Assembly: GCF_026914185.1 (NCBI RefSeq)
Contig: NC_070561.1
Span: forward strand, 1,550,001 to 1,614,000
Source of the DNA: Puccinia triticina
Lineage: Eukaryota; Basidiomycota; Pucciniomycetes; Pucciniales; Pucciniaceae
Direction: 5' to 3'
Length of the DNA stretch: 64,000 nt
This document shows positions 10,583-56,136 of this stretch, one piece after another. Under the pieces are notes generated by a model. The model did not search any database and had not been told where the DNA came from. It saw only the letters and a program-made list of their open reading frames with translations. The translations under genes were made by a program, and so were the position numbers. Position 1 is the stretch's first letter, and each line of letters begins with the position of its first letter.

Positions 10583-10699
10583 CGAACTTAACAAAGTCCC
10601 TCGAGACTTCGGGGGACTCGCGAAGCGAGCCTCCGTCACCTCGGAGGCTCGCTTCGCGAGACACACGCCCGCAGCAGCGAGGGCCTTGGGTTAAGTTTG
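10583..10699. mobile_element. Hairpin-ended 9-bp-TSD element, 117 bp
   Basis: The smallest member of a family recurring at 12486, 26954 and 55945. The left end CGAACTTAACAAAGTCCC mirrors the right end (reverse complement CAAACTTAACCCAAGGCCC). The interior is a GC-rich foldback (GCGAAGCGAGCCTCC against GGAGGCTCGCTTCGC). Flanking 9-mers are GGGTACGAG (10574-10582) and GGGTGCGAG (10700-10708), 8 of 9 identical. The element ends 103 bp before the start codon of the ceramidase at 10802. A further GAGGGACTTGGTCAAGTTC follows the right duplication and may be the remnant of another copy. Confidence 0.75.
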
Positions 10700-10801
10700 G
10701 GGTGCGAGGGACTTGGTCAAGTTCAGCACCTGACACGCGGCGCGGCCCATCTCCGTACATAAACAGGAATCCCTCCAGGAAGCTCATTCAAAAGTTCCAC
10801 A

Positions 10802-12339
10802 ATGGGTCTCTCCCCTCCCGAGGTTAATGTTACTCGCTGGTGGTCCAAGCAACCACCAGTAGACGGCTACTGGGGTCCCTCGTAAGCACAGCACCTAAAA
10901 ACCACTTGGAGGTGTACACTCAAACTAAAATGGTTGATCGATAACTCGGTCAATTCAGAACATCTTCTATCGATTGGTGGTCAGTCCGCGCCTACTTCAT
11001 CCATCTCTAGCAATCACTCACTGCTTTTTTCCGAGTACAGTGAAGCAAACTATGCCATCACCAGATTCATTGCCGAATTTGCGAACACGCTCTCGAATTT
11101 GGCCTTTTGTCAGTCATTCAAGATCATCAAGCATCATATCACGGCTCCATGAAAACCAAAACTGATCTTGTTTTGCAACTCGGATTATGTGCTAGTCGCT
11201 TGGGCTTTCTAGTGAGTGGATCCATGTTTCACGATAATCGGTCTATCATTATGGCACTCTCCTAACGTATTGAATTGGATGGCAATGTAGCGGAGTGAAA
11301 AAATGCAGAGACGAAAAACTGCCACTTCCACTTGCGCTTTGTCAGGTAGGAATCGCATTGGTAGGCATCGGAAGTTTCATGTACGTTATTGGCAAGCTTC
11401 GACCCACGAGAAAAAGCTAAGAGCTGATAGTCTGCCGCCAAACCCAGGTTTCATGCCACATTACATTACGAATGGCAACTAGCAGACGAGCTGCCGATGA
11501 TCTTCAGTTCCGCATTCACCACCTACGTTGTATTTGATACCGGTCGCGCAAGTCTACCCCGGAGCCGATTTGTTCGCAGCCTACCTTTCCTCCTCTTCCT
11601 CTACTGCTCCGGCTTCACCGCCATTTACCTCCGCCACCCCAATCCGGTCTTCCTGCAAGTCGCATTTGCTGCCATCCAACTGTCAGTCCCTCTTTGCTTC
11701 TCATTGGCATGCCCTCTATACCCTTGCTCATTTTGTTCCTCTTCCTGCTTTTCCAAACACACCCAAACAGAACTGCTAATTTTCGCGCAGCTTATACCAT
11801 CTGCACAGCTCCGGTCAAAACTTGCAAAGAGCAGAAGAACAAGGCTCAGATCATACGCTACCTGTCCGCCGGATTTTTCACCACCCTCATTGGGTTCTTG
11901 ATCTGGAATGTTGACAATATGTAGGTATCCTTCCGTCTAGCTCAAAGCTGGTTCCTTCTTTTCTCACCTCCGCGCTTATCAACTGCTTGTTTTCTGGCAG
12001 ATTTTGCGATCGCATCTCGCACCTCAAACAACATCTGGGTATACCCTGGTCATTCGCTGTGGAAGGGCACGCCTGGTGGCATCTAGCCACGGGCACTGGT
12101 GCATATCTGGTAAGCCGCCCCTAAGTATACCTATGAGGGTATCAATAATAAACAACCGCCAACCACAACCCGTTTTTCTTGTGGGATCTTTGTAATACCA
12201 GAGTACGGTCGGATTGCAATTGATGTCAGTGAGCTTCAAAGAAGGCGCAGACGGCTTCGAGATCAAGCGCGGCGGGATCCTCGCTCTCTGCCCATACGTC
12301 GCCCGAACTCTCACCAACATGCACTCCAAGCTTGATTAA
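10802..12339 (+). CDS. Alkaline ceramidase, copy A
   Basis: Hydrolyses (dihydro)ceramide to sphingoid base and fatty acid; family members are multi-pass proteins of the ER/Golgi. Model: join(10802..10881, 10959..10979, 11041..11108, 11196..11211, 11291..11380, 11448..11681, 11771..11920, 12001..12109, 12202..12339), 301 aa, all phases consistent. Family motifs are in order: SIDWCEANYA near residues 30-40, FIAEFANTLSN, LFHxTL-like FHATLHYEWQLADELPM (acidic/His metal-site region), and VEGHAWWHLATGTGAYL near the C-terminus, which carries the family's C-terminal His residues. Exons of 21 and 16 nt are needed to restore conserved residues. Copy B at 53998 has the same exon plan. Hairpin-family elements sit 103 bp before the start and 146 bp after the stop. 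Confidence 0.88.
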
Positions 12340-12485
12340 TTTCTCCCCTTCGCCACCATCCTTCTCCGCAATCGATTAGCATAACATCTTGCTCTGTGCC
12401 ATCGCATTCTCTCATTTCATCTTTTTGTTCTTCTTGCCTTTATTCTTTTCTAGCTTCTGTGTCGATCATCATCCTCGGAAAAATC

Positions 12486-12526
12486 CGAACTTAGCGAAGT
12501 CCCTCGATTGGAGGCGCGGGAGCGCT

Positions 12527-12559
<33 letters not shown>

Positions 12560-13044
12560 GCCCTACCTCGCAAAACAATAGGCAGCAGACGTCTGTTTTC
12601 AGTGTTTTTCGCTTGTCCCTCCGTTGTAGCTACGCCAGGACAGCTGGGGCCAAGTCAGCTGCTTCAAGAGATAGCCAAGAAGCATGGCTCTCTGCTGGTA
12701 TCTTTCTTTTATCTGTAACAGTTGAACTGGATTTTTTTTAAAAAAATAAGAGCTGCTAAGTTTTGACAGGCGTCAAAAGTATGGCTTTGACCGAGGCCTG
12801 TTTGAACAATGCCCTCCCAAAACCCATGAACTCCTTTTTGTTTCATTTGGGATTCAAGAGATTTTTTGGAGGGATCCAACCTCAGGAAGGTGGCAGGTGC
12901 AAGTGCTGATGTAGGCAGACAAAACTGTCTACTCAGAATTTTGATAGTCTATAGCTGAGTCAAGATATAAAGAGTTGAAAATTTTGAAAGTTTTTCCCAG
13001 CCAAATGGGATTTCTGCTGCCTACTCTTTTGCGAGGTAGGGCGC

Positions 13045-13075
<31 letters not shown>

Positions 13076-13115
13076 AGCGCTCCCGCGCCTCCGATCGAGG
13101 GACTTCGCAAGTTCG
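12486..13115. mobile_element. Hairpin-ended 9-bp-TSD element, 630 bp
   Basis: Inverted ends of about 105 bp: left CGAACTTAGCGAAGTCCC, right (reverse complement) CGAACTTGCGAAGTCCC, followed by matching GC-rich sequence. Each end itself folds (AAGTCCCTC against GAGGGACTT, with GTCGCGAAGCGAC inside). A perfect 9-bp duplication GGAAAAATC flanks it (12477-12485 and 13116-13124). The interior has no coding capacity that I recognise. Long inverted ends plus 9-bp duplications suggest a Mutator-like (MULE) non-autonomous element; the superfamily is inferred. Confidence 0.9.
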
Positions 13116-13124
13116 GGAAAAATC

Positions 13125-13655
13125 ACATTGCCAGGATGAGAAAATGTTTGTCTATACGTATCTACTCTTTTTTTTTCTCATCCCCCCCACACACACACTC
13201 ACATTTCTTGACATAGAACCCATTTCCTACCTGTTGTGAGAAATACCTCAATTATTTCCTGCCTGTTGTGCAAGTATGTTGGTGAATTATTGAGGTCAAT
13301 ATACATAAACACATCTGCATATAACTAAAGAAATAGCCTCTGGGGGCCAAACAAACCTGTGCATTAATCTGTCATGCAAGTAACGCCGGCGTCGATATGC
13401 GTGTAATGCTGGCGTCAATGCTCTGCTTTTGTATTAACCACATCTTACTCCACATCAACAGAACCTTCAAGGGTTCAATCCTTCAGGGTCTGTCCCCGAG
13501 TCTGTTTGAGCAGACTCAACAGATTTATTCTTTCACACCCCCTGGAACCCCAAATTTGGGGGCTATTGCCTCATACATACATACACACATACATATATAC
13601 AATGCAATGTAAACTTACTGCATCCCATTTTTCTTTTGGTGATTTATTGAGCGTC
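13125..13655. other. Intergenic, ceramidase A to twinfilin
   Basis: AT-rich with a CATA/CACA microsatellite near 13570-13605. It probably holds the 3' UTR of twinfilin, which lies on the minus strand and ends at 13656. No gene seen. Confidence 0.5.
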
Positions 13656-18440: not shown

Positions 18441-18442
18441 GG

Positions 18443-18600: not shown

Positions 18601-18602
18601 CT

Positions 18603-19160
18603 CGGCGACCGGAAGGGGCCCCTTTCGGTCGAAGAGGGATGACCTCGGCGACCAAAAGGAAGCCGTTCTGGTTGCAATAAGACCTCTGCGACCAGGAGGT
18701 TTTCTTCTGTTCGCCGAGGTAACTTTGACGACCAGGAGGTTTCCTTCTGGTCGCCGAGGTAACTTCAGCGATCAGGAGGTTGTCTTCTGGTCGCCGAGGT
18801 AACCTCAGCGACCAAGAGGTTGCCTTCTGGTCGGCGAGGTAACCTCTGCGACCAGGAGGTTACCTGCTGGTCGCGCGCTAAGGTTATTTAACCTCTGCGA
18901 CCAGGACTATTTCCTCTTGGTCGCCGAGGTTTTACAAACTTCGTGACCAAGATAGTATCCTCCTGGTCGCCGAGGTTTTGTAACCTCTGCGACCGGGAGG
19001 ATTTTTTCCTTCTGGTCGCCGAGATACAGCCCCGGTGACCGGAAGGAATCCCTCCTGGTAGATGAGGTTGTGTGTCCTCGGCGACCAGGTGGGTTTTCTG
19101 GCTGCCAAGGCTGTAAAACCTTGGCAACCGGAAGTGATCAGGCCTTCCGGTTGAAGGGAT
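18603..19160. repeat. Tandem array of about 40-bp units with internal dyad
   Basis: Units of about 40 bp such as GCGACCAGGAGGTTNCCTTCTGGTCGCCGAGG repeat more than ten times with drift; the clearest copies lie at 18660-18870. Each unit is an imperfect inverted repeat (CGACCAG against CTGGTCG), so either strand could form a row of small hairpins. It sits between two copies of the GGGTACCC palindrome repeat. Confidence 0.75.
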
Positions 19161-19164
19161 CAGG

Positions 19165-19362: not shown

Positions 19363-19380
19363 GCAAAGAATTGTAGTTTA

Positions 19381-23645: not shown

Positions 23646-23683
<38 letters not shown>

Positions 23684-23690
23684 TCTCACA

Positions 23691-23728
<38 letters not shown>
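23646..23728 (+). tRNA. tRNA-His (GTG) with a short intron
   Basis: A perfect 7-bp acceptor (GTGGGCG with CGCCCAC), discriminator A, T arm GTCGG-TTCGATT-CCGGC and a B box GGTTCGATTCC. The anticodon arm reads TCTCG-TTGTGG, then an 11-nt intron, then C and CGTGA (one mismatch). TTGTG pairs with CACAA in the intron, the anticodon-intron helix expected for spliced tRNAs. Six T residues at 23761 can end Pol III transcription. It lies 186 bp beyond the PGS1 stop codon. Confidence 0.82.
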
Positions 23729-23731
<3 letters not shown>

Positions 23732-26944: not shown

Positions 26945-26953
26945 CCTTTTTAC

Positions 26954-28157
26954 CGAACTTAACAAAGTCCCTCGCTGCTGCGGGCTTGGGACTCGCGAAG
27001 CGAGCCTCCGACAGCCCTCGGCAGGAGGCGAGTCCCAAGCCCGCAGCAGCGAGGGACTTTGTCGAAGCGAGCCTCCGACAGCCCTCGGCAGGAGGGACTT
27101 ATACCGTACCTCCCCTTTCTGGCGCACGGAGAATGCAATTTTCACCCCACTTTTCACTTTTCCTCTTGTACCTCCCTCATTCCATGATAGACTTGTTTTT
27201 TTTTTTGCTCCAGATCAGCTCAACATGCTACTGCTGAGGCTTCTATTTTTTTTTCTTTATGTACTGATACATGTATGTCCTGAGAAATTACACAAGACAA
27301 ATAAACCTCAAGTCTGTTACCGAGTCTGCAACCCAGAATTGCAGAAATTAATCACAGAATGAGAGCACGGACTCTCTGTTTAATACATAGCGTGTTTCAC
27401 ACGCAACTAGCTTGAGGATGGTGCTCCCTAGTGACTAGGTAGCTCAGTGGCGCGTTCGGCTGATAGTAAACCACCAAATCGGCCTTCGGGGGATACCCAC
27501 AGCGCTCGGCGAGTTTTGACGTCCGCATCATCGTTGTTGAGAAATGCACTCAAAAATTTCTTCGGTGTTAGATTGAGTGAATTCATAATTTTGATTATGT
27601 GAAGAACTTTCTGATGTTCAAAATGTAGCTCGGTAGGAATACGGTCGGGATTGGGCGCTGGTTCAGTCATGGCTGGGAGTTGGTATACTTCGGAAATTGG
27701 TGTTGCCGGATTGTTGAGAGTGATCGGTTGGATGAAATTTTTGAGTGTGTATACACGGGCTTTGTCATTCATGCGGCCGTGAAAATGAACTGTAAGTCGA
27801 AAAAAAAAGTGTATGTATATCCGTGTGAGCACAGACCTTCTCTGTTACTCGACTTCAGTAAACTCCAAGGTTTGCTCGACTTTGATAATTTTTTTAACCT
27901 TCAAGAAAGGGTGCAACTTAGCTTAGATTGTGTGGGATGATGCGCAAGATGCAAGGCTTTGTGCCAAGCCAATTTTTAAGTTCTAATGTTGTGAGTGCAA
28001 GAAACTGTGTTGGTTTGAAGAAACCACCCAGCCAAACTCAGATTCTAGGCTCTGCGAAAGGGGGTGATAGCGCGCAAGTCCCTCCTGCCGAGGGCTATCG
28101 GAGGCTTGCTTCGCAAGACCAGACGCCCGCAGCAGCGAGGGACTTGGGTTAAGTTCG
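26954..28157. mobile_element. Hairpin-ended 9-bp-TSD element, 1204 bp, carrying an ORF
   Basis: Left end CGAACTTAACAAAGTCCC and right end (reverse complement) CGAACTTAACCCAAGTCCC, both followed by TCGCTGCTGCGGGC. A perfect 9-bp duplication CCTTTTTAC flanks it (26945-26953 and 28158-28166). The left arm holds a duplicated GCCTCCGACAGCCCTCGG block. It is the largest member of the family in this window and the only one with an internal reading frame (27428-27832). Confidence 0.9.
27428..27832 (-). pseudogene. ORF fragment inside the 1.2-kb element
   Basis: 134 codons on the minus strand. The first half reads like intron or random sequence; the second half (HQKVLHIIKIMNSLNLTPKKF, then DVKTRRALWVSPEGRFGG) resembles the N-terminal part of large repeated proteins in rust fungi and other basidiomycetes that often start with a TPK-F...RRR-W pattern. 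I recall this only as a DUF6589-like type and cannot verify it. It may be a captured host fragment or the remains of the element's own gene. Confidence 0.4.
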
Positions 28158-28847
28158 CCTTTTTACTTACGACTACTGCGGCCACCGAATCTATCCCTGT
28201 TTGGCGTCCCGAGGAGGCCACGATCGCGACAGGCCCCGCAAATATTGGTACCCTGGACAAGAGGGGTCTCAGCAATGAATGACTGCACGTTCGCAGTGCG
28301 CAATCGAGCCCTTCAAATTCTTACTGAAACTGGACCCAGAAACAATAAATTCAACTGGCAGCGCTTTCAGTCGTGGCTACGGTCTTCACTCGCCCAAAAA
28401 GCAGTATGCATGTCGCGTAGTATTGCTTCAGCAATTCTAGCGCGTACTCATGTAGGGCTGTGTCGGTATAAGCTCAAAGCTGTTTAAGTATACCTCATCG
28501 GTTGTACCATAGGTTTACTCGCTGCCTGCAGTGGCAGTGCTGACTGATTGCAGTCGTCGAGGCAAGAACTGTTGTCCTTTACCCGGATTATGTATGATTC
28601 GGAAACACACAATGCTGCTGTTGTTGTATCTGACCCCGCAAAGTGCCTTCGTTGTTGCGATAAAACCCTCGGTGTGAACACGGTCTTGCAGTGATGGATG
28701 AGCCGGGATTGCAATGTATCCAGCCGATGGACGAGTTTTCAACATGTTTCGACAGCATACGACTACTGTTTGCCTGCATCCAGCAGGGGATATCCTCAGT
28801 CACGCTGAGAAGTTCTTCTCTGCACGCTCATACTCGCCATGAACGAC

Positions 28848-29337: not shown

Positions 29338-29339
29338 TC

Positions 29340-30203: not shown

Positions 30204-30649
30204 TGTAACAAATATCTTGTTAATTATGGATTAACACGTGCTTTATTTGTTATCCGTTGAAGCTGACTAACAGGATGATCGGCGTTGGATCTCCTTGGCT
30301 TTTGTAATCGGGTAACATCGCGCATGATTCATGACGTCTTTCATTAACATTTATGTCGTCATCGTATGCTTCTGTGAGCTTGTCTTTATCTCTTTTTCTT
30401 CGTATCCGGTTGTTCCTCCTTTCCTCTCTTTCTCCATTGGAATATTCTTTATCATCATTTCCTCAGAAATCTAAATTATCATTATCAACAAAATCAATTA
30501 CAAACAATCTGAGTTATCCTTATAAGGTTTCTATTTGCACATTGCTTAGAACCTTACATCTAGTTACTATCCAAGCATTGGCGAGTTGTCCTCTTGGATT
30601 AAACTTCATAGCCAATATATAGCGAATTGGTAGTAGCCTGATCCTCACA
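30204..30649 (+). repeat. 5' LTR of the gypsy element
   Basis: 446 bp, starts TGTAACAAATATC and ends GATCCTCACA. It aligns without gaps to the 3' LTR at 36018-36463. Confidence 0.95.
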
Positions 30650-30718
30650 TTTATATTCCGATCTTTCAAAAACATACTATTATAACTTTATATTTCCAAA
30701 TTTTTTACCTTCCAAACA

Positions 30719-32092
30719 ATGTCTGAAGTCTCCGATATGGCACCCATTACTCCTCTCCGAAACTCTCCTGCTGTTACTCCTTCCCCTCCTCTGGTTGCCG
30801 ATCTTCCAATCTCTGATACGGCGCATCAATTTTTTTCGGTCAACACCCCATCTCCTTTCAATCACAATTCCCCTTTGTTCATGTTGTTTTCCCCTCAATA
30901 CATTCCAACAACCTCTCCACAGCCACAAGATCAACAGCGAATTCAGCAAGGACCCTCAACAAGCCGTCCTCTTCCTTCGGGTTCCGGTAAACAACGAGAA
31001 GCTTTGGACGACGACATGTCGGCTCTCCTGTCCAACTTACGGGTCGACAATTCGACTCAATCTACTTTGATTCAAGAACAGGCTGCTTCGATTGCGCTTT
31101 TGAATGCGCAGGCTCGACAAGACAAGACTGCGATCTCTAATCTTCAAGCCAAGACCAAGAACATCAAGGACATTTTTCATTCCGAATTGATGAAAACTCA
31201 GGCTACCCATGATCAATCTATCGCTCATCTTCGAGGTCTTTTCAAGGGTTCCACGAATTCGTTGGGAAGACGGTTGGGTCGATTGGAGGTTGCTAGCTCT
31301 CAACCGGCGGTTTCCCGCATATTCGTAGAGCCCCCTCATCAATCCCGTATTTTTTTTACCGGGGCGCCTCGCGAAACTAACAACTTTTGTTTCACGATGA
31401 GAAACTCTTTCGAGCGAATAGGGGAACAGTTCAATACTGAGAAGCAGAAGATTTTGTGGATCTCCGGGTACTTTCGCGCGGGTCCAGGCCGTATGGATGG
31501 CGAGGTGCCGTCTTACACATGGTGGCGAGGTTTACTTTCCAACAATGCGGCGGCTCTTAATTTACCGGCCTTGAAGGCGTCTTCTAGGATGGAATACGTA
31601 ATCCCTGAGCTCCATGACGTTGACTCATTCATCAATTCCATTGAGCGCACGTTTGCTAACCACCATGAGTTGGAGGAAGCGGAAGCGGCGTTTTATTCGG
31701 CTCGTCAAGGCAACAAGACGATCGAAGAGTTTAACATTTTATTCAACTCCCTTTTGAGGCCTTTGGTCCTTGATGATCAATCAAAATGTAAAGCGTATGA
31801 TAAGGCGATTGACAACAATCTTGTCAAGCTGGCGCTCATCAGAGGTCCATGGAACGATGTAGTGGATTTGAGTGAAAAACAGGAAATAGCAGTTTCGGTT
31901 TCCAGAAATTTGGCTGGGGTAACCAAGATTCTTGACCCGAAGTTCAACCCATCTCGACCTGCTAATCCTCCTCAGCGACTTCCCGCGCCGGCTCATCATC
32001 CGCCGCCTAAGGTCCCTGACGGAGATGCCATGGATTTGGATGAGGTGGCCGCCGCGATGAAGGATGCAAACTTCTCTTATGCCGACTTTTGA
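30719..32092 (+). CDS. Gag of the gypsy element
   Basis: 457 codons. A Pro/Ser-rich start, a coiled-coil-like stretch (TLIQEQAASIALLNAQARQD, near 115-160) and a capsid region with WWRGLLSNN and the EAEAAFYSARQG...EEFNILFNSLLRPL segment near 325-355. The frame stops at a TGA (32090-32092). The next in-frame codons encode ECVDRNICIRCGG and HYQKRGC, a degenerate zinc-knuckle-like Cys/His cluster, so the nucleocapsid part lies beyond the stop. Confidence 0.9.
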   Translation: MSEVSDMAPITPLRNSPAVTPSPPLVADLPISDTAHQFFSVNTPSPFNHNSPLFMLFSPQYIPTTSPQPQDQQRIQQGPSTSRPLPSGSGKQREALDDDMSALLSNLRVDNSTQSTLIQEQAASIALLNAQARQDKTAISNLQAKTKNIKDIFHSELMKTQATHDQSIAHLRGLFKGSTNSLGRRLGRLEVASSQPAVSRIFVEPPHQSRIFFTGAPRETNNFCFTMRNSFERIGEQFNTEKQKILWISGYFRAGPGRMDGEVPSYTWWRGLLSNNAAALNLPALKASSRMEYVIPELHDVDSFINSIERTFANHHELEEAEAAFYSARQGNKTIEEFNILFNSLLRPLVLDDQSKCKAYDKAIDNNLVKLALIRGPWNDVVDLSEKQEIAVSVSRNLAGVTKILDPKFNPSRPANPPQRLPAPAHHPPPKVPDGDAMDLDEVAAAMKDANFSYADF

Positions 32093-35000
32093 CAAGAATG
32101 TGTCGATCGAAATATCTGTATCCGTTGCGGGGGCGCCTTCGACGATTCTCATTATCAAAAACGGGGTTGTACGTTGGGGCCAGAAATGAAAATGGATATG
32201 TCGGATATGCTACAGTTGTGGAAGGAATGGGGAGGTTCGGTTCGGAAGAAGAAGTCGGGAAGGCGAAGCGATTCAAAGTGGGCTCCAGAAAATCTCGCTC
32301 GACAACCTCAATCAGGTTATCGCCGCGAGAAGCAACGGGCTCAGGTGGACGACTCTTGCTCATCTACTCCGGTCGAGCGCCCTGATAAAGGGAAGAAGAG
32401 GCAGTCTTTGGCGGAGGTCGATGGATTGCCTTTCAAGAAGCGATCTTCCGACAATTCTAGTCATGATAAACTGGACAACCCTGCCTTATTGGCTGATGTT
32501 ATCAATATGGAGGATATGTCGGCGGGGGAAGTTTTCTTCAACTCTTGTATGTCGCAAAAGATGAGTGCGACGGACTGTAAGCAAGCTCATTTCGTTAAGA
32601 AAGCCGCTCGGGCTGATAACCGGCCCTTCTTTAATGGGTCTTTACTAACTCGCGATAATATTAAAACTGATGTTTATGTTTTGGTTGATTCTGGTGCTTT
32701 GGCTTCTTTTATTGACATTACCTTTGCTAAAGAATCAAAATTAAAGACATTCGACATGCCAATCAAGGTTCAATGTAAATCCTTCGATGGATCGGCGGCG
32801 ACTTCTGGCGAGATAGTATCTTATGCAAAAGGAGATATTTTAATCCCCACCGTTTGCGGTTCCTTTCTTTCTTCTCAAGTGACTCTTTATTTAACTACGC
32901 TGGCCTCGGCTAATGTTATATTAGGAAATTCCTGGTTAACAGATTCAGGCACGTTTGTTGGAGGGTCTGACAGCGATGTTGTAATGTATGATAGCGTACA
33001 AGAGATTTGTGATTCCTCATGTAATGAAGCTAAGCTGCTTACCCACGATTTTGCCAATGTTTTTGTCACAGAGAGTTTGGCTTGTTTGCCTCCGCACCGA
33101 GGGCAGTTTGATTGTAAGGTTAATCTGAAGGAGGGAGCCATCCCTCCGTTTGGTAAAATGTATAACTTGAGCAAATCGGAAAGGGACGAGTTAAAAACTT
33201 ACGTTGACAAGAATTTAGCCAAGGGTTTTATTAGGTTGTCTTCTTCGTCGGCCGCGGCTCCTATCTTTTACGTGAAAGTGGAGGGTAAAGCCAATCGACC
33301 TTGTGTAGATTATCGAATCCTCAACAACATGACAGTCCGGGATTCTTATCCTCTGCCCGTTATTGCTCACCTCCTCAACAATCTACAAGGGTGTAAATTT
33401 CTTTCGAAGATCGATCTCAAGGCGGCTTTCAACTTACTAAGAGTGGCGGAGGGACACGAATGGAAGACAGCGTTCAGGACCCCATGGGGGTTGTATGAAT
33501 ATCAAGTCATGCCGTTTGGTTTGGCTAATGCTCCCGCAACGTTTCAGCGTTTCATTCAGCACGTGTTGCGTGAGTATCTCGATGTCTGTTGTTTTGTGTA
33601 TATTGATGATATTCTTATTTATTCGAAGACGAAGGAACAGCATTTGTTGGACTTGCGACGAGTCTTGCGGAAGCTGCGGGAGTTTTCTTTGAAGGCTTCT
33701 TTGCGGAAATGTGAGTTCTTTTGTTTGCAAGTAACGTTCCTGGGTTTTGATATTACTGACAAGGGATTAAAGATGAACAATTGTAAGCTTAATACTATAA
33801 ATGACTGGCCTTTGCCGACAACGGTTCGAGGTCTTAGGAAGTTCCTGGGTTTTACTAATTTTTATAGGCGCTTTATACCGAGGTTCTCTTCGGTGGCGGG
33901 TCCTTTGACCACTTTAACTCAGGATAAGTACAGCGATTCGACTTTGCTCAATTCTAAGAGTGCCGTGGTTGCTTTTGAAGCGCTGAAATCTCTCTTTATA
34001 AAAGAGCCTTTACTGCTCCATTTTGACTTCGAAAAAGACAGGGTGGTGCATGTGGACAGCTCCGGATACGCGATCGCGGCGGTTCTCAGTCAGCCAAATC
34101 TCAAGGGTGATTATCTCCCTGTGAGCTACTATTCTCGTAAATTGTCGGACAGGGAGCGCTCGTGGAAGATTTTCGACTTGGAGTTATTGGCGATTGTTTC
34201 GGCTTGCCAGGAATGGCGTGCTTGGTTGATGGGAACGGTTAATCCGGTTACCATGTACTCTGATCACTCCAACCTCTTATATTTTAAAACTGCTAAGTAC
34301 TTGTCTCCAAAGCAGGCTCGCTGGGCTTTATTTTTGGATAATTTTAATATGCTAATCTATCACATTAATGGTTCTAAAAATCCAGCGGATGGGCCTAGCC
34401 GGCGCAATGACTACTGCGAAGGGAGGATTGTAAGTGGAGACGCTAATTTGATTACTAAACAAATGGTTTCGTGTGATGCAATCAGTGGCGGATCGGCTGG
34501 ATCCCCCATAACCTCTCACGATTTATTCTTTCAACGGCCAACGGAGGCGCTTTTGTCTTATTTTTCTCCATTCTATACTCCCGAAGAATTGGCTAACAAA
34601 CATGTTTCATTGATTGACGGTATCTATTGGCATAACAGTAGAGTTTGCGTGCCAATCTCTTTGCAGGCTAGAATTTTAGCGATGTATCATGATACGCCCA
34701 CGATGGGCCATCCGGGCATCGCCAAGACTTTGTCAACTTTGACCAGAACGTTTTCCTGGCCGGGGGTGCGCTCATCGGTTATCCAATATGTCAATAGTTG
34801 CGATTCTTGTCAGCGGGTGAAGGCAAGACGAAGGGCCCCGGATGGCAAGCTGGTTTCCATCGTGGCAAATCCTAAACCCTGGAGCGTGATCGGAATGGAT
34901 ATGATTGTAAAGTTACCTCTGTCTGGGGGATTTGACTCGATCTTGGTTGTGATTGATTTACTTAGCAAGCTGACGCATTTTATACCATGCAAGGAGGCTT

Positions 35001-36001
35001 CTTCTTCGGCGGTTTTGGCTTCTTTGTTTAAGAAGCATATTTTCCGTCTGCACGGCCTTCCAGACAAGATTGTTTCTGACAGGGGTTCTACCTTTGTTAG
35101 CGACTTCTGGAGAGAGCTGATGAAATCTCTAAGTATCAGGTCGGCTCTTTCCACGGCTTATCACCCACAAACCAATGGGCAAACTGAGCGAATGAATCAA
35201 GTGGTCGAGGATTATCTACGCCATTTTTGTTCATACTATCAAGATAATTGGGACAAATTTCTGGACATGGCGGAGTTCTCCATAAATAATACGGATTCGG
35301 CGAGTTTGAAAATTTCTCCTTTCTTCTTTTCCTATGGTTTTCACCCCCGATTTAATATTATGACTGAGAATACGGGCCGCAAGACTTTAGATGACTTCAT
35401 GGTTGATTTGCAAGTGACTCAGGAAACTGCGACTGAATGTCTGCGACAAGCGCGGATTAAACAAGCAGAATATTATAATAAGGGTAAACGAGATGCTCCA
35501 GTATACCGCAAAGGCGAGCAGGTTTTGTTGTTGCAAAAGTTCATTCAATCACGGCGTATTAACTCAAAATTAGATTACAGATACATCGGACCTTTCAAAG
35601 TAGTTAAGATGGTAGGCCCCAACGCAGTAGAATTAGATTTAGCTGCTGATTATCCTAAACTTCATCCTGTATTTAACGTTTCCTTGCTGACTCTTTATGT
35701 TACTCCCTCAAGTGTTCCAGGTCGATTGTCAAATTTGGGTATTAAGGATAAGTATTACACTGATGAACAAATTGTAGACTGGACTAGAATTAAAGCCGTT
35801 CTCGATGTCAGGGTTGTTTCTAAAGGTAAGCTGGATTATTTAATTGCATGGCACAATTCAACGCCGGGGGAAGACACTTGGGTGTCTCAGAATCATATTC
35901 CGGTGGCCGCTAATAAATTTTTGGACGAGTTTCGACGTTTGTCGGAGATGAAGAAGAAAAAGAATAACAAGAAGAGTAAGGTGAATGTTAATAAGGAGTA
36001 G
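32093..36001 (+). CDS. Pol of the gypsy element (PR, RT, RNase H, IN, chromodomain)
   Basis: Open in the gag frame from just after the TGA; the first ATG is at 32174 (1275 codons from there). Counting from that Met: protease VDSGA near 170, RT with VDYRILNNM and the catalytic YIDDIL near 475, RNase H from VHVDSSG near 625, an integrase HHCC finger (H...H near 838-842, CDSC near 875), catalytic Asp in GMDMIV near 907, Asp in VSDRGS near 968, Glu in QTERMN near 1003, and a C-terminal chromodomain (LDVRVVSKGKLDYLIAWHN) near 1210-1260. All catalytic residues are present. A chromodomain normally directs integration toward modified histones. Confidence 0.93.
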   Translation, partial: QECVDRNICIRCGGAFDDSHYQKRGCTLGPEMKMDMSDMLQLWKEWGGSVRKKKSGRRSDSKWAPENLARQPQSGYRREKQRAQVDDSCSSTPVERPDKGKKRQSLAEVDGLPFKKRSSDNSSHDKLDNPALLADVINMEDMSAGEVFFNSCMSQKMSATDCKQAHFVKKAARADNRPFFNGSLLTRDNIKTDVYVLVDSGALASFIDITFAKESKLKTFDMPIKVQCKSFDGSAATSGEIVSYAKGDILIPTVCGSFLSSQVTLYLTTLASANVILGNSWLTDSGTFVGGSDSDVVMYDSVQEICDSSCNEAKLLTHDFANVFVTESLACLPPHRGQFDCKVNLKEGAIPPFGKMYNLSKSERDELKTYVDKNLAKGFIRLSSSSAAAPIFYVKVEGKANRPCVDYRILNNMTVRDSYPLPVIAHLLNNLQGCKFLSKIDLKAAFNLLRVAEGHEWKTAFRTPWGLYEYQVMPFGLANAPATFQRFIQHVLREYLDVCCFVYIDDILIYSKTKEQHLLDLRRVLRKLREFSLKASLRKCEFFCLQVTFLGFDITDKGLKMNNCKLNTINDWPLPTTVRGLRKFLGFTNFYRRFIPRFSSVAGPLTTLTQDKYSDSTLLNSKSAVVAFEALKSLFIKEPLLLHFDFEKDRVVHVDSSGYAIAAVLSQPNLKGDYLPVSYYSRKLSDRERSWKIFDLELLAIVSACQEWRAWLMGTVNPVTMYSDHSNLLYFKTAKYLSPKQARWALFLDNFNMLIYHINGSKNPADGPSRRNDYCEGRIVSGDANLITKQMVSCDAISGGSAGSPITSHDLFFQRPTEALLSYFSPFYTPEELANKHVSLIDGIYWHNSRVCVPISLQARILAMYHDTPTMGHPGIAKTLSTLTRTFSWPGVRSSVIQYVNSCDSCQRVKARRRAPDGKLVSIVANPKPWSVIGMDMIVKLPLSGGFDSILVVIDLLSKLTHFIPCKEASSSAVLASLFKKHIFRLHGLPDKIVSDRGSTFVSDFWRELMKSLSIRSALSTAYHPQTNGQTERMNQVVEDYLRHFCSYYQDNWDKFLDMAEFSINNTDSASLKISPFFFSYGFHPRFNIMTENTGRKTLDDFMVDLQVTQETATECLRQARIKQAEYYNKGKRDAPVYRKGEQVLLLQKFIQSRRINSKLDYRYIGPFKVVKMVGPNAVELDLAADYPKLHPVFNVSLLTLYVTPSSVPGRLSNLGIKDKYYTDEQIVDWTRIKAVLDVRVVSKGKLDYLIAWHNSTPGEDTWVSQNHIPVAANKFLDEFRRLSEMKKKKNNKKSKVNVNKE

Positions 36002-36017
36002 TAGGCGAGGCTTATTT

Positions 36018-36463
36018 TGTAACGAATATCTTGTTAATTATGGATTAACACGTGCTTTATTTGTTATCCGTTGAAGCTGACTAACAGGATGATCGGCGTT
36101 GGATCTCCTTGGCTTTTGTAATCGGGTAACATCGCGCATGATTCATGACGTCTTTCATTAACATTTATGTCGTCATCGTATGCTTCTGCAAGCTTGTCTT
36201 TATCTCTTTTTCTTCGTATCCGGTTGTTCCTCCTTTCCTCTCTTTCTCCATTGGAATATTCTTTATCATCATTTCCTCAGAAATCTAAATTATCATTATC
36301 AACAAAATCAATTACAAACGATCTGAGTTATCCTTATAAGGTTTCTATTTGCACATCGCTTAGAACCTTACATCTAGTTACTATCCAAGCATCGGCGAGT
36401 TGTCCTCTTGGATTAAACTTCATAGCCAATATATAGCGAATTGGTAGTAGCCTGATCCTCACA
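36018..36463 (+). repeat. 3' LTR of the gypsy element
   Basis: 446 bp, starts TGTAACGAATATC. It is preceded by AAGGAGTAGTAGGCGAGG, a weak purine-rich tract. Confidence 0.95.
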
Positions 36464-37902: not shown

Positions 37903-39543
37903 CAATGGCACATAATTACCAGAAAAGCAGGAAGCGCCGTCAAGCACCTGGATCCCCTAGCTCCTCCATCCCCAGTAGTACCCCAGCCGAATCAACCCGA
38001 CATCCTCGACGGAGAATAGTGAATGTCATTGACGACTCCGATGTAGGAGAACCCAAGACTCAAGAAAGCACTCAAACTCCTAGGTCCCAGGAGCTGACCG
38101 ATGAGCAAGAGCTTTGTAAGTGACTCAGCTATTAATTTCATAATTGATCTAAAATGTCATGCCAACCATCCTGTTTTTATTTCCTGTAGGAAAGGCAATC
38201 CAGGTGCACAAAAATCAGCTCAGCGCTTGCTATGCCGCCTATCACCCTCCAAAACTCTCCGATCAGTTGGATAAACACGGCCGCAAGATGATAGCTTACT
38301 TGTGTTGAACGTGAGTAATTTTCTGGTGTATGTAGTTTCCTTCCAGTCCTCGCTGGGTTGCCTGACTTTCCCCTTTTTTATTTCAGATGCGGCAGTAGTA
38401 TCAACCGACCAACATACAACACTTCCCCTAGCAATCTCTCCAAGCACGTGGCTAGTTGCACTAAGAGAACCCACAACTCCAAAGCTCAAACATTAACATC
38501 TATGGGGATATCTGGCAGTAATAATGTTGATGCTCGGGATGTGAGTGCCTTATCTTTGATTCCCAAGAGAAATGTAGGACTGACCTCTAGAATGTACCAG
38601 GTACCTCAGCTGGGTGCAGTTTGGTGTGCTGAAGGTGCCCGACCTTTCTCAGCTCTTGGGGAGCAGGCGCACCAAGGCATCTTGCACCCAACTGTTGTGC
38701 GACATTTACCCAGCAAAAAGGCTGTATTGAACAACATTGCCCGCTTATATACGGCCGTGCAGGACTCCATTATTCAATCCCTTAAGGTTTGATTTCCCTC
38801 TTTTTCAATTAATGAACAATCAGCTGATTTGTCTTTCTAGGCTCACACTGGGGCAATGTACTTGGGTCTTGATGCTTGGCAGTCCCTGAATGGATTTGAC
38901 GTATTGGGGACGGTGATATACTGCATGGTAGAAGATGAAGCAATTGGATTCCACTTGGAGGCCATGCCACTCAATTTTGTCAGGTTAAAACAAAGCCATA
39001 CGGGTGTTTATCTGGCCAAAACGGTCCAGCTAATTGTTGATAAGTTTGGCTTGAGGGACAAAGCAAGCACCTTTTCTGAGTTTTCCCGTGCAATATTTCT
39101 CCATTTTGCTAATTCCTCACTATCTTATCCCATAGATATGTGGTATTGTTACTGACAACGCATCAAACAACCAAACAATGATTGAGGAGATTGCAAGATT
39201 CAGATGGCCTTGCTTCAAGGGTGAACCACAATGGATCCAATGCTTCGCACACATTCTCAATTTAATCGTTCAGGTGATATTGCGGCCATTTGGAAGCCAA
39301 AAGAAAAAAACATATTAGCTCAGCTCACAAAGATGAAGACAATTCTGGCGACAATCTTTTGGATCCAGACGACCCGGAGGATCCAGATGACCAGACTCAG
39401 CTGTATGTTTCTTTTTTCCTGTCTTGTCGCCTCCCTCGATTGGTTGATCACTGAATATTATTGTTAAAACTAACAATGCATTTTGCAGACGCTTAGCAGA
39501 AAATGATTGACTTGGGCAGGATTTGAACCAGCGACCTTAGCTT

Positions 39544-39596
<53 letters not shown>

Positions 39597-41284
39597 CCAT
39601 GCCTGATGTGTTGATTTTGACCACTGAGGATTACAACATTTCAACAATTATCTAAATTTACCCAGTATGGTCAAAGACACAGGCAATACTGAAGACAAAG
39701 AGGAGGCTGAAGAAACAGATCTTCTGGCAGCCAAGGTCATCAACAATGAAGAGATCGAACTTGAAAGCAATGATTTTAATGAGTTAAGTGACGAGGATGA
39801 TGACAATTGATATACATCTGATGCTTGCAAACAGAGACTGGCTAGGGTAAGCCAAGCTCATCACCCTTGGTATCAACAATCATGTCATATTTACTGAATT
39901 CATTTCCATACTGAAAATAGTTCCGAGCAATCTCCCGCAAGCTTAATAAGTTGCCGAACTCAAAGGCACTGTTTGTTGAGCTATGCAGGGATCACAATTG
40001 TGGAACACCACACAATATCAAACAAGATGTCAGAACCAGATGGAACTTGACTTTGGCCCAGTTGGCCAGTATCTTGAGATGCTTGGCAGCAGTGTGAGTC
40101 CATTCTCTTACTAAAACCATTAGTCAGGAATACAACTGATATATTCTTTCTATTGCAGTCTTGAGTGGCAAACCAATTGATGACACGGCCTCTCCCGAGA
40201 ACATCAGATCAACCAGGACGATCTTGATATGGCAAGCGACCTCGTTGAAGTTCTTCAACCCTTCTCTGAAATGACGCTACAAGTCTCGATTCCCGGTGGT
40301 GCTCGAATAGCAGACATAGTTGTGTTTATCAACCAGATCACAAGCCACCTTTCAACAGCCATTTCCGAAAAGAAAGTGCAGTATCCCCCGGCTTTGAGAA
40401 ATGCCTGTCGTGCAGGACTCCAGCTCACAAAAAAGTACTATACTCTTACGGACTGCTCACCATTGTACCGAGTTGCCATGGGTGGGTTTTAACTTCTTGT
40501 CTCTAATCCCTTTTATTTCATACATACTCAGCTGACTGAAAAGATTTGAATTATTCAGTTCTTCATCCATCCTTCAAGGATGAGTATTTCAAACTCGCTA
40601 ACTGGCAACCTGAATGGATTCAAGAAGCAATCAGACTCACCCGCGAGATGTGGGAAAGCAAGTACAAACCTCCACCTCACCCAACCACCACCCAGCGACC
40701 AAATACTGGCCCAAAAGTGAGTAAATGTCTGACAAAGATTGCCGCATCCATCATCATCCATACTAATCTGCTACACAAAAGCCTCAGGCAGGTATCCTGG
40801 CAGGTTTAATGGGTGCTTCAGAGGCACGCGGAGCAAGTACCACCACAGATCCACTGACCATGTGGCCTTCGGGAGGATTGGTGCTGAACAAAGATGGACA
40901 GCCGGTCGACCCCCTCAAATGGTGGATGCAGCAACGACGTGCTGGCAATTCTCATGGGGGCCTTCTCCAGATGGCATTAGATGTGCTAAGTTGTCCGGGT
41001 GGGCACTCTTAATTGACCGTTTTTTATGCTTTTTGAGCTAACACCGCATTTCATACAGCAACAACCGTGGACGTTGAGTGATCTTTCAGTTTTGGCTGAG
41101 ACTATGTTTCCTTACAAAGGCATCGCCTCAGCGCATCATTGGTTACTCAAGGGATGGCGGTGGCATTCTACTCCAAGAATGGTAAGATTCAACCAGGGGT
41201 ATTGCGTAAATGGAAACTAAAGAAGAGGAACAAAGCTAAGATGAAGGGAAATGAGAGAGCAGGGGTGGGGAAACCATGATGCTT
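37903..41284 (+). pseudogene. hAT-family transposase, degenerate, several exons
   Basis: Exon-like blocks: 37903-38116, a BED-type zinc finger around 38392-38470 (INRPTYNTSPSNLSKHV with flanking Cys), 38520-38790, 38850-39050 (MYLGLDAWQSLNGF), 39137-39270 (GIVTDNASNNQTM, then WIQCFAHILNLIVQ, the classic hAT core), 40220-40480, 40550-40715 and the C-terminal dimerisation region at 40860-41240 (DPLKWWMQQRR, TTVDVE-SFSFG-DYVSLQRHRLS). In-frame TGA codons sit where Arg is expected (after YLC, in VE-SF and in G-D), each explained by CGA to TGA. It is not functional. Clear hAT ends and an 8-bp duplication were not found. Confidence 0.85.
39509..39597 (-). tRNA. tRNA-like gene of class II size, isotype unresolved
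   Basis: A perfect acceptor (GACTTGG with CCAAGTC), A box TAGCCTAGTTGG and B box GGTTCAAATCC both match consensus, discriminator A, and TTTT a few bases downstream. At 89 nt it fits a class II tRNA with a long variable arm (CTTAG-CTTCAAG-CTAAG), but the anticodon arm would then be GCACT-(8 nt)-AGTGT with an abnormal loop. Read as class I with an extra hairpin, the arm CTTAG-CTTCAAG-CTAAG has T33 and anticodon TCA. The T stem has one mismatch. It lies inside the hAT pseudogene. Confidence 0.6.
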
Positions 41285-47490: not shown

Positions 47491-47538
47491 GGGGGAGGTG
47501 TCTGTTGGGGGAGGTGTCTGTTGGGGGAGGTGTCTGTT
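47491..47538. repeat. Three-copy 16-bp repeat
   Basis: GGGGGAGGTGTCTGTT occurs three times in a row with almost no change. Confidence 0.85.
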
Positions 47539-47539
47539 A

Positions 47540-49090: not shown

Positions 49091-49093
49091 CAG

Positions 49094-49340: not shown

Positions 49341-50265
49341 CAGTGTTTTTTCAGCCCAACTCACATATCCGGACCCGTAAACAGCACATGTGGACGGGTA
49401 CCTGAGGCTGAGGGCAGTGCTGGGTACTGCCAAATGGGTACCCACTGGCCACCTCTATTTTAAAAGATGCTGCAGGTTCTGTTTCAGGAAACCACAATCC
49501 AGAAAATCAGCACACCTGCAAAATAACCTGCAGGCTGGAGCCCAATTTTACCCAAAAAATATGCCAACCTAAATGGATAATTCTTGTTGCAGGAACTTTG
49601 TTTTCCTGAACTGTGACCTGAATCATGTTTGAAACCCCTAATTGCTGTAAAGATCCAAGATTGATTATCCTATCTACATAAAAATTCACCAATTGAGTGG
49701 CTACAGGTTTAGGATCTGCAGATATCTGTGGTTTTTTTGAATCCAAGATCCACAAGGCATGAAGGTTATACATCTACATTTCTTCACTTTTTTATTACCT
49801 TTAAAGAATTAATACAAGGAGAGAAGCTTGGATTGAAAAAATGTGACCAGCACCAAATGAAAGCTGAGGTCAAGAAGTATCACATGGCACCGGGGAAGAT
49901 CCACACTGCACAGGGTCTGAGGGGGAGGCTTAATATTTTCCCTCCAGACATTTGTGATTTCTTTCTCAGCCAAAATTTTACCTTGTGCAAAAGTCTCTCC
50001 CTGCAGGAGGGGCAGCTTGTCACCGGCCACAGCAAACACCAGGGGTGACTTGCGTTAAGTTAGACACTAGTGCAAACCAAGCTTGATAGTAGGCTGGATA
50101 ACTTCCAACAGTTCACGGCCTACACGCGGGGACTGCTCGTTTGGACTGTCACTAGCTTTCATGTGTGATATGTTCAGATGAAATATGTGGTGCTATGAGC
50201 TCGCCCAGCTGTGCCCCCACACTGCCATGGCCTTGCCTTGTCGGTCGTGGACAGATTCCTTGAGA

Positions 50266-51790: not shown

Positions 51791-52217
51791 CGACAAGAAA
51801 TCACTTTAAATTATTTGTTCAGAATTGCTACACGATGAATGAAAAGAAGACAATCAAGCTTAGATAATGTATGTATATCTAGTATAATAAAACTGTGAAT
51901 TATCTATGTAGCTTGCAAGAAAAGTAAATAAGCCCGACTCGAAGAAAGAATATTTGAACCCAAGAAGTTCGAAAGAAAGGAAACTAAATAAATGTGCGAG
52001 AAATAATTTTCAACACCCGAGAACACATAGAAAACCGAAGGAAATACATATTTATGTCCATATATACAGAACTAGACACTTAATGCTTGACTTGTGGCCT
52101 CCTTAGGACGCGCATGTAGACTAATGTAGTGATAGAAAGCGAAAGAAATGACGATATATAGGCTCCGTCGGGAAACCCCGGGTCGGCAAGTAGAAGAGAG
52201 TCTCGGTCAATGGAGTC
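51791..52217. other. Spacer after the sec6 remnant
   Basis: AT-rich, no gene. It likely includes the 3' UTR of the Cys-rich protein gene, which ends at 52218 on the minus strand. Confidence 0.45.
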
Positions 52218-52881: not shown

Positions 52882-52889
52882 ATTCTTGC

Positions 52890-53990
52890 TGGGGTGGGCA
52901 GTGGTGGCGTGCGGAGGTGTTTAAACAAAAGATTGTTTTTTCAGAGAATGTATTGAGTGGGCGGGTAGGGTAGTGGGGTAACAGTCGATGAAGAAAAAAG
53001 TAAAGTGATGAACTTTCTAAGCGTGTTTTTTGGGTGGAGGGAAGGGAAACAAGGTCGAGCTTAAATAGATTTCTTCGCGGCCTTGAAGCTGGTCCTATTC
53101 ATGAAGTGCATGGACTGCTCGTGTTGAGCCAGGTTAAGGGCAACAGCTGGGGCAGCTCAAGACCTAGTTTATTGGCCAGGGGCAGGCCTCCCGGGCCGCC
53201 AGTTATTCAACGAGTTCATGAAGGATTCTCGGCTGTCGAAATTGAGGCGTGTCAGGCCTTGCTCGATGAGTTTTTTCTGAGCTGGTAGAACCGGAATGCG
53301 GCGTTGGGTTTGTAACGTGTTAAATATTTCGAAATAGGCATAGATGAACACATGCCCTCCGATGTTCTGACTCCCATAATAATCGTTGCATGGTGTTTTG
53401 TACGCCCAGAAACCGGGCCTGGATGAGAGCACAGTTAGCCGCACTGGAGCAGTTCCTGAAGCGAGTGGTGATCCCGCCTGGAACTCTTGCTTGACTGCCA
53501 ATGTTCTTGTGTCCAGTGGCAGCATCGCCTTGGTTGGGCCGGTTCAGCCGCGACCTCGTTGGCCCAGAGATCCCTGCCGGACAACGACTATGCCCGGAGA
53601 GTCACCAGGTGGGGGAGGGGGAGTGTGGCGGAAAAGAACGGGCGCCCTGTGGTGCCGGAGATCGGAAAGACCGGCCCCGAGAGGCCACCGCCACATGAAA
53701 CATATTCGGCGGCCGATGCGCCCCACGCCAGTCTCGCCCGAGTTTGCCAGCCCGGTCACTCCGTGTTAGAGTGTTAGACAAGATTATGCGTTTCATATAC
53801 TTATCATGTATATAGCTGCACTAGACCTAACCTTGTGATACCGGTACACATAACCCTATCTATTGTGTACCGGTATAGATAGCCACGCGCCCCGGCTCCC
53901 TTCTCTTCCCTCATCGAGATTGGAGACGGTTACGCGCGTGGTTAGCTTACTCAAAGACTGTCATTGTACAGATCACCTGAGCTTTCTATA
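52890..53990. other. Region upstream of ceramidase B
   Basis: A 118-codon minus-strand frame (53169-53525) reads plausibly like protein (SRPGFWAYKTPCNDYYGSQ, then AQKKLIEQGLTRLNFDSRE), but I recognise no family, start context or introns. GC-rich overlapping plus-strand frames (53386-53777) look like composition effects. The last 150 bp is the ceramidase B promoter. Confidence 0.35.
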
Positions 53991-53997
53991 CTCCGCA

Positions 53998-55544
53998 ATG
54001 GGTCTCTCCCCTCCCGAGGTTACTACTGTTACTCGCTGGTGGTCCACGCAACCCCCAGCTGACGGCTACTGGGGCCCCTCGTAAGCACAGCACCCCAGCT
54101 GGACACGGTGTGCCCGAAGAAACATTGCCAACTGACCTCTCGAATCCTGCAGCACATCTTCGATCGATTGGTGGTCAGCCCCCGCCTGCTTCTCGACCCC
54201 TCGCTCTGGGGCGCATGTACTCACTCTTCTTTCCCCGGAGCCAGTGAAGCCAACTATGCCGTCACCAGATACATTGCTGAATTCACCAACACGCTCTCGA
54301 ATGTGGTCTTCGGTAAGTCTGCCTCCAAGCCCACCGAGCACCACGTATCCACGAACACAGAAAACTGATCTGGTCTTGCGGCTCCGGCCCTCGGATCAGT
54401 TTCCTTGGCCCTGTAGTCCGTACATTCTCGCGTCCAGATGAGCACGCGGCGCGGTTCTGATTGCTTGACTTGCAGCGGATTGAGGAAATGCAGGGACGAG
54501 AACCTTCCGCTTCCCCTAGCGCTTTGCCAAGTCGGAATCGCATCGATAGGCCTCGGAAGCTTCCTGTCAGTGGACATAGACCCGACCGACGAGAAGAGGA
54601 ACGAGCAAGCGCTGATGTGCCCGACCCCTGCAGGTTCCATGCCACATTGCGATACGAATGGCAGCTAGGCGACGAGCTGCCGATGATCTTCAGCTCCGCA
54701 CTCTCTGCCTACGTGGTCTTTGATACCGGGCGGGCAAGCCAGCCCCGGACGTGGCTCGTTCGCTGCGTGCCCTTCCTCCTCTGCCTCTACTCCTTCGCCG
54801 TCGCCGCTGTTTACCTGCGCTACCCCAACCCGGTCTTCCATCAAGTCGCATTCGGCACCCTCCAACTGTAGGTCCCCCGTTCAATCCTCACAATCGTGCC
54901 CTCTGCTCCCTTGCTCATCGCTCTTCTTCCTGCTCCGCCAAACACAAAAAACAACAACAACAGAATTTCCACTTTCCGCTCGGTTTATACCATCCGAACA
55001 GCTCCGGAAGCAACGTACAGAGAGAAGAAGAACAAGGCTGATATCATACGCTTCCAGACCGCCGCATTTTTCATCTCTCTCACTGGGTTCTTGATCTGGA
55101 ATATCGACAACTTGTAGGTGTCCCTCCGTCTAGTTCAGTTCAGTTCTGGCACCGGTTCTCCTGACCCGCGCGCTTTCGACTGCGTATTTTGTGGTAGATT
55201 CTGTGACCAACTCTCGCTCCTGAAACAGTATCTGGGTGTCCCCTACTCATTCGTCGTGGAAGGACATGCCTGGTGGCATCTCGCCATGGGCGCCGGTGCA
55301 TATCTGGTCAGCCGACCCTTCCCAAAGCATCCGGATCAGGCTAGCAATCAGAAGCAAGCGCTAACCATCCCCCCCGTTTTCCCTTGTGGGATCTTTGTTA
55401 TGCCAGGGCACGGTCGCATTGCAATTGATGTCATTGAGCTTGAAAGAAGGCGCAGACGGCGTCGAGATCAAACACGGCGGGATCTTTGGTCTCTGCCCTT
55501 ACGTCGCCCGGATTCCTACCAAGATGCAGCCCAAGCTTGATTAA
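53998..55544 (+). CDS. Alkaline ceramidase, copy B
   Basis: Same enzyme as copy A. Model: join(53998..54080, 54153..54173, 54245..54312, 54400..54415, 54476..54565, 54634..54867, 54964..55113, 55198..55306, 55407..55544), 302 aa. Every internal exon has exactly the length of its counterpart in copy A, including microexons of 21 and 16 nt; only exon 1 is one codon longer (VTTVTRWW against VNVTRWW). Motifs: SIDWCEANYAVTRYIAEFTNTLSNVV, LALYGLRKCRDENLP (across the 16-nt exon), LFHATLRYEWQLGDELPM and VEGHAWWHLAMGAGAYL. At least five hydrophobic helices are visible, fitting a membrane enzyme. A hairpin-family element lies 400 bp after the stop. Confidence 0.9.
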
Positions 55545-55944
55545 TTTCCCCCCTTCACCACTGCCCTTCTCCGTACCTGATCAGCATTTCTTCTCCTTGC
55601 TCTTTTGCGAGAGTTCTATCCTTGCGTGTGGCTGGAAGCATACTCCACAATGCTTATGTGTCGCAGTCCTGGCTGTAGTCGCTCCTTCATGACTTCTGAG
55701 GGTGGGTACCTCCAGGATGACTCCATACGAGGATACTCAAAAGCCTGGAGAAGCGACCAGTGGCAATCTTTTTACGCAGGAAGAACGGCGATTGGCAAGG
55801 GCGGGCCGACGGGCAGTTCGGGAAGTCGGAGGAGGGGCGGCTGCCGACAGGGGCTTGCTTGGTGCCCAAGCCGGAGCTTTTTTAACATGAGCAGAAAGGG
55901 CAACTTCCCGCGTGTTGGAAGGTCCAGCTCACGAGAGGGTCTCT
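55545..55944. other. 3' flank of ceramidase B
   Basis: No gene seen; the short frames lack motifs. Confidence 0.5.
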
Positions 55945-56136
55945 CGAGCTTAACTAAGCCTCTCCGAGCAGGCGCGAAGCGTCTCCGAAGGAGAGGCTTA
56001 GGACTAATGTCCCATATTTGGCCTGAGGCTGACGGGGTTTTTCGATGAAAATGTATGATTTTTGGTACAAGTCCCTCCCGCAAGCGGGAGGGTGCTCGCG
56101 CCCCGCGAGTACAGGGAGGGACTTGTGTTAAGTTCG
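55945..56136. mobile_element. Hairpin-ended 9-bp-TSD element, 192 bp
   Basis: Left end CGAGCTTAACTAAGCCTC, right end (reverse complement) CGAACTTAACACAAGTCCC. Two foldbacks lie inside: CCTCTCCGAGC...GGAGAGG at the left and CCCTCCCG...CGGGAGGG at the right. A perfect 9-bp duplication AGGGTCTCT flanks it (55936-55944 and 56137-56145). Confidence 0.85.

Follow-up and report, generated by a model that had tools for sequence, protein, structure and literature searches.

The window analysed here is a stretch of 64,000 nucleotides of the rust fungus Puccinia triticina (G000:C4:1550001-1614000 of a 122.8-Mb assembly of 18 contigs), and it carries four insertions of a large family of DNA elements with inverted, mostly palindromic ends. 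The sequence-only reading of this stretch had claimed a 9-bp target duplication around each of them, and both the coordinates and the duplications were confirmed.

10583..10699, element 1, 117 bp; duplications at 10574-10582 (GGGTACGAG) and 10700-10708 (GGGTGCGAG), 8/9 letters identical
12486..13115, element 2, 630 bp; duplications GGAAAAATC at 12477-12485 and 13116-13124, 9/9
26954..28157, element 3, 1204 bp; duplications CCTTTTTAC at 26945-26953 and 28158-28166, 9/9
55945..56136, element 4, 192 bp; duplications AGGGTCTCT at 55936-55944 and 56137-56145, 9/9
49991..50063, minus strand, decayed lone end of a related member (CTAACTTAACGCAAGTCACCC), for which a partner was looked for and not found

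The motif AAGTCCCTC occurs 13 times in the window, against an average of 0.58 in shuffled sequences. The termini do belong to one family, as had been proposed, but they are more variable than was claimed, since the ends at 12486 (CGAACTTAGC), 13115 (CGAACTTGC), 55945 (CGAGCTTAACTAAGCCTCTC, with the hairpin partner GAGAGGCTT) and 10699 (CAAACTTAACCCAAGGCCCTC) deviate. Two types of end can be distinguished, in which 1 or 2 nt separate CTTAAC from AAG, and elements 1, 3 and 4 have one end of each type. Elements 1 and 2 lie on either side of the first of two paralogous genes (10825-12389 and 54024-55594), which are 43 kb apart, 80-92% alike in pieces and, judged by eye, presumably encode alkaline ceramidases.

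When the whole genome was searched with the terminus and the flanks were examined for duplications, as the sequence-only reading had proposed, most of the members examined behaved like those of the window. With at most two mismatches there were 599+604 (1203) ends of the 2-nt type and 939+863 (1802) of the 1-nt type, while the reversed patterns gave 1+1 and 6+2 matches, respectively. Individually listed were 217 distinct ends of about 3000, and all counts of facing ends refer to the matches listed; for 26 left ends among them a right end lies in facing orientation at most 15 kb away (these pairs include element 3; elements 1, 2 and 4 stand outside them). The duplication was 9/9 in 21 pairs, 8/9 in one and absent in four, that is, 22/26 pairs reached at least 8/9. 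Flanks of the duplicated pairs read one base longer or shorter had at best 5/10 or 5/8 letters identical, therefore the stagger is 9 bp. Copies with duplications range from 69 to 9599 bp, and no strong target motif was found across 33 typed duplications. At one locus (L040, 903-2481) a 589-bp and a 972-bp copy adjoin with a single 9-mer between them, where the second copy seems to have used the target duplication of the first one. Three exact ends in the same direction (G000:C11:5035040, 5044773 and 5054508, in steps of 9733 and 9735 bp) probably mark a tandem repeat carrying an element.

An empty site holding exactly one 9-mer, the other expectation of a transposon insertion, was found for a family member elsewhere in the genome; for the four window copies no spanning match was met in the window and the other genome loci compared. 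The member in question is a 578-bp copy (L045) with CTGCAGTCC on both sides, inserted midway in another repeat. When its flanks were joined around one 9-mer, they matched all 40 scored copies of the host repeat (40 of 181 candidates), in every case across the junction; a further 41 output rows are other-strand overlaps or a short piece, and they overlap the same places because the host repeat is palindromic. Seventeen of the 40 empty copies match 300 letters to 300 and 20 show no net length change, the rest being 1-16 letters off somewhere, and all six junctions that were read carry one 9-mer, CTACAGTCC, with one base different from the filled copy. The duplications together with this empty site demonstrate that the elements insert by a 9-bp stagger. 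The host repeat is itself a multi-copy inverted-repeat element, with a left edge that resembles (77-81% similarity) stretches in loci of Mutator-like elements (MULEs; L009-L012, L031-L034).

The sequence-only reading had also called for a long member with a transposase. Such coding members exist; the gene found in them is DUF6589, not that of a MULE. The 7115-bp element L082, with 9/9 duplications, contains DUF6589 in two stretches (E 3e-35 and 1e-35) and a helicase on the opposite strand, both genes being interrupted by stops or introns. Two further elements, C8:4705256-4711759 and C13:623447-629753, have 9/9 duplications and enclose matches to both genes; they are known from the profile matches between their ends. 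The window copies, being 117-1204 bp long and sharing their ends with these three coding elements, are miniature inverted-repeat transposable elements, and none of the genome-wide DUF6589 matches listed falls in the window. The 104 listed matches form 83 loci, and 76 of these have a convergent helicase downstream within 9 kb; the other orientation was never seen and seven loci are without helicase. A listed end faces 9/83 loci within 6 kb, where about 0.9 would be expected. In L090 an unbroken DUF6589 match starts 2.0 kb inside the terminus CGAACACACAAGTCCCTC (a variant without TTAAC), the partner of which is GAGGGACTT.

The predicted structure of DUF6589 (predicted local distance difference test score 83.6) has the DDE-transposase, RNase H type of fold, the conserved acidic residues are present, and the best structural matches are Hermes (hAT), P element, ISCth4, Transib and RAG1 at 6-13% identity. 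They have in common an RNase H fold into which a helical stretch is inserted ahead of the final acidic residue; unlike our family they are not known to carry a helicase, and their duplications are of other lengths. The helicase is matched by PF00271 (E 6e-6), and several of its relatives are called RecQ by their sources. In both protein searches the closest named proteins came from Puccinia, with P. triticina ranking first.

It was suggested by the sequence-only reading that the elements are Mutator-like. Mutator-like, Foldback and Rehavkus elements indeed have 9-bp duplications and long or folded ends, as this family does, and PF10551 is common in the genome (150 matches), thus a MULE transposase might have moved these ends. 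However, 0/145 PF10551 loci are faced by any of the 217 listed ends within 6 kb, 0/30 MULE loci of about 3.3 kb contain an end, and the bounded long members carry DUF6589 and a RecQ-type helicase, which leaves a MULE origin with a negligible probability. KDZ, hAT and Kolobok were set aside on their usual duplication lengths. IS200/IS605 and REP elements resemble the family in their subterminal hairpins, but they are served by HUH enzymes acting on single strands and are not known to make a duplication, in contrast to the DDE-type fold and the 9-bp duplication here.

Academ transposases are DDE enzymes with an RNase H fold, and the AcademH group was reportedly defined by Kojima in 2020 (Mob DNA 11:15). 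Excerpts of later papers describe AcademH as helicase-encoding DNA transposons of fungi including Basidiomycota (PMC10045372, PMC10799480), with duplications of 9 or 10 bp and a helicase where AcademX has a nuclease (PMC10045372), and as low-copy in fungi (PMC10799480). The present family fits this picture in its duplication length (22/26 facing pairs), in the SF2 helicase beside 76/83 DUF6589 loci and, according to the structural model and the acidic residues, in its putative DDE transposase; on the helicase and the duplication length we have filed it as AcademH-like. It is unlike the elements of those excerpts in its thousands of ends and many tiny derivatives, and hairpin arms are a feature here, the comparison with AcademH being one with the citing papers' descriptions. 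In the papers searched, nothing bore directly on the termini of AcademH, on DUF6589 or on Puccinia elements that are hairpin-ended or make 9-bp duplications, which is a weak negative; the excerpts of PMC12730594, PMC10977897 and PMC3579696 were likewise not relevant to this family.

Taken together, we consider it highly probable (about 0.86) that, in this Puccinia rust, a two-gene DNA transposon of AcademH type is represented in the window by four short non-autonomous copies. The two-gene cassette lies within the same kind of ends. The full element would encode a DDE-type (RNase H fold) DUF6589 transposase and a convergent RecQ-type SF2 helicase; the transposase, which we infer to be the enzyme cutting these ends, would act on termini of the form CGAACTTAAC-N(1-2)-AAGTCCCTC and insert with the 9-bp stagger. 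The helicase most likely would help to open the ends, or to process excised or gapped DNA, and the transpososome most likely would recognise the arms, be it by their sequence or by their fold. A two-gene transposon is hereby linked to the thousands of small repeat ends of this rust genome, and DUF6589 is given a likely function. In rusts, RecQ-type helicases are counted as an enriched class of the effector family in an excerpt of PMC9370660, and the helicase beside 76/83 DUF6589 loci would offer a concrete reason for their abundance.

Several observations weigh against this interpretation. Four of the 26 facing pairs are without duplication: the pairs at C14:1687701, C18:1780615 and C6:4043283 showed none, and the fourth, C2:3705702-3713963, was not compared as a pair, its right end belonging to another copy (L055, 1255 bp) with its own 9/9 duplication. 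The copies L002 and L008 are better fitted by an 8-bp duplication. Among the ends listed, 74/83 DUF6589 loci have no facing end. Six DUF6589 flank stretches were read; L112 was picked for its listed end, and of the five read blind to ends L110 has a partial arm, the one with the terminus CGAACACACAAGTCCCTC, and four have none. Both ends of each bounded coding element, in all three cases, are of the 1-nt type, unlike those of elements 1, 3 and 4 of the window, and 2-nt ends face DUF6589 loci only singly (C4:5081590, C7:1644926). The arms of element 3 are similar to those of the 9377-bp element L081, which holds a Ty3 retrotransposon and is without DUF6589 match. Compared with RecQ and WRN in the PDB, the helicase matches weakly (best E 0.0086), and the name AcademH, taken from descriptions, should be read as provisional. 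L081 also has a frame at 1277-1714 resembling, by eye and without Pfam match, a Tc1-type DNA-binding piece, and a 275-aa frame at 7964-8791 with a Dynamitin match below threshold only; these could possibly be captured or nested genes.

The claim that every arm folds on itself was valid for the arms of most copies; in the 117-bp element 1 the arms do not fold separately because both are fused into one long hairpin. Arms of the window were folded with DNA energies, and z was calculated against 200 shuffles.

10594-10691, element 1, fused hairpin, -39.3 kcal/mol, z -8.6
12497..12557, plus strand, element 2 left arm hairpin, -19.8 kcal/mol, z -4.6
13045..13105, minus strand, element 2 right arm hairpin, -23.1 kcal/mol, z -5.0
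26962..27062, plus strand, element 3 left arm with an inverted copy of its own start (sequence self-comparison)
28076..28145, minus strand, element 3 right arm hairpin with CTTGC-GAA-GCAAG mini-hairpin, -20.5 kcal/mol, z -3.8
55956..55999, plus strand, element 4 left arm hairpin with compensated outer stem AAGCCTCTCC/GGAGAGGCTT, z -2.4
56069..56124, minus strand, element 4 right arm hairpin AAGTCCCTCC/GGAGGGACTT, z -3.2

The left arm of element 2 is predicted to form a 9-bp outer stem, an inner stem and two mini-hairpins, one of them GTCGC-GAA-GCGAC. For element 4, 6/200 shuffles fold as well as the left arm and 2/200 as well as the right arm, the outer stem of the latter appearing in the centroid and not in the lowest-energy fold. 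Genome-wide, the collection of arms whose outer stem is self-complementary came to 81, of which 3 were dropped as unlike the stem, the remaining 78 falling into 22 clusters; a few arm bodies are poorly bounded, and that of the arm at 10583 extends beyond the element.

The common outer stem is AAGTCCCTC/GAGGGACTT. A plain rival view of the palindromes is that a transposase-binding site, AAGTCCCTC, stands in each arm as an inverted pair, and that the hairpin is a by-product which never forms in the reaction. It is favoured by the conservation of the outer stem sequence itself, TCCCTC being present in 75/111 arms collected under relaxed rules, and by the changes in it. Against a role for structure, of the 36 relaxed arms with another stem only 4 fully match their own partner. 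Changed stems such as ACCCTC, ACCCTT, TACCTC and GCCCTC are uncompensated; those such as ACCCTC or TACCTC retain the old partner and look simply decayed, and part of the 36 probably do not represent ends. The 4 matching arms form a subfamily with the outer stem AAGCCTCTC/GAGAGGCTT, in which two base pairs are swapped on both sides, and which the binding-site view does not predict. When the outer stem was removed, so that the choice of arms could not bias the result, the inner loops reached z <= -2 in only 9/22 clusters (median -1.3), which again favours a binding site. A C-GNA-G triloop was predicted in 9/22 clusters against 0.27 expected, where the clusters are related and the 9 are not independent events.

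Covariation was examined in 20 distinct sequence windows (37 places) selected on GC[GA]AAGC, therefore only pairs 3-8 from the loop are informative. Pairs 3, 4 and 5 are paired in 0.75, 0.75 and 0.95 of the windows, and after shuffling of the 3' letters in 0.41, 0.52 and 0.50, shuffles being as good in 1, 2 and 0 of 2000; these figures ignore relatedness and are not probabilities. Pair 3 types include C-G, T-A and G-C. For pairs 6 to 8 the pairing in the 20 windows was no higher than in shuffles, thus the unit is a mini-hairpin of 5 bp, closed by a GAA or sometimes an AAA loop and present in many arms, the stem of which covaries between subfamilies. Such a unit, with a conserved loop and a covarying stem, is not predicted by a mere binding site. 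The GCGAAGC DNA hairpin is exceptionally stable and melts near 78 C, according to an excerpt of PMC4686876. On the strand whose 5' end is the element end, GCGAAGC is present in 29/78 arms, and on the reverse in 4/78; in the window it or its complement occurs 7 times in the 2143 bp of elements vs 5 times in the remaining 61857 bp. The largest cluster, that of the L082 subfamily (26 arms), is without GCGAAGC and has GCCTGAGGC in its place.

Sequence, folding energy and inner-stem covariation thus demonstrate that most arms are palindromes with the predicted ability to form a hairpin or cruciform. The foldable ends suggest that the element may open its termini and recognise them in hairpin form, and they make it testable why such a transposon carries a helicase. 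A bolder proposal would be that the ends of this eukaryotic DDE transposon are recognised or processed as folded single-stranded DNA: its own RecQ-type helicase would open the termini, the 5'-ended strand would fold (with the GCGAAGC cap in many subfamilies) and the transposase would read the fold before the 9-bp staggered insertion. This bolder proposal we regard as rather unlikely. That the fold matters to the reaction at all is an inference, and a binding site without any role for the fold is at least as likely, although we would not give it even odds.

Another source of palindromes could be snap-back (templated) repair at broken or stalled ends, the products being kept by drift. The left arm of element 3 speaks for it, where 26962-26996 comes back at 27028-27062 as a perfect inverted repeat of 35 bp and a 33-bp direct repeat (26996-27028) returns at 27063-27095, a scar of the kind that might be expected when a folded single strand serves as template. 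So do copies of 69, 78, 78, 119 and 132 bp, in which the left and right arms are joined almost directly, each with 9/9 duplications and its own junction. If these copies moved in that form, the arms are nearly sufficient for movement; they may also have been shortened by deletion after insertion. Snap-back repair would account for single odd arms, but not for a shared outer stem with differing inner stems across clusters, nor for the recurrent C-GNA-G loop, and we hold it unlikely as the general origin. Finally, the hairpins could act in RNA, as silencing triggers or targets or as terminators, since transcription of a long perfect hairpin like element 1 would yield double-stranded RNA; the loop that recurs, however, is known as a stable turn of DNA, and the arms occupy the extreme element ends, both of which make this quite improbable.

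Further features were noted in the window. Tandem units of 173 bp at 90-94% identity, with inverted copies alongside, occupy 373-1717, and 40-bp tandem units with a GACCAGGAGG/CTTCTGGTCGCC pattern lie at 18642-18881. Two tRNA genes are located at 39508-39597 and 23646-23728. A Ty3-type long terminal repeat retrotransposon at 30204-36317, with reverse transcriptase, RNase H and integrase domains and a weak chromo domain, has direct repeats of at least 300 bp that are 99% alike, and it was probably inserted recently.

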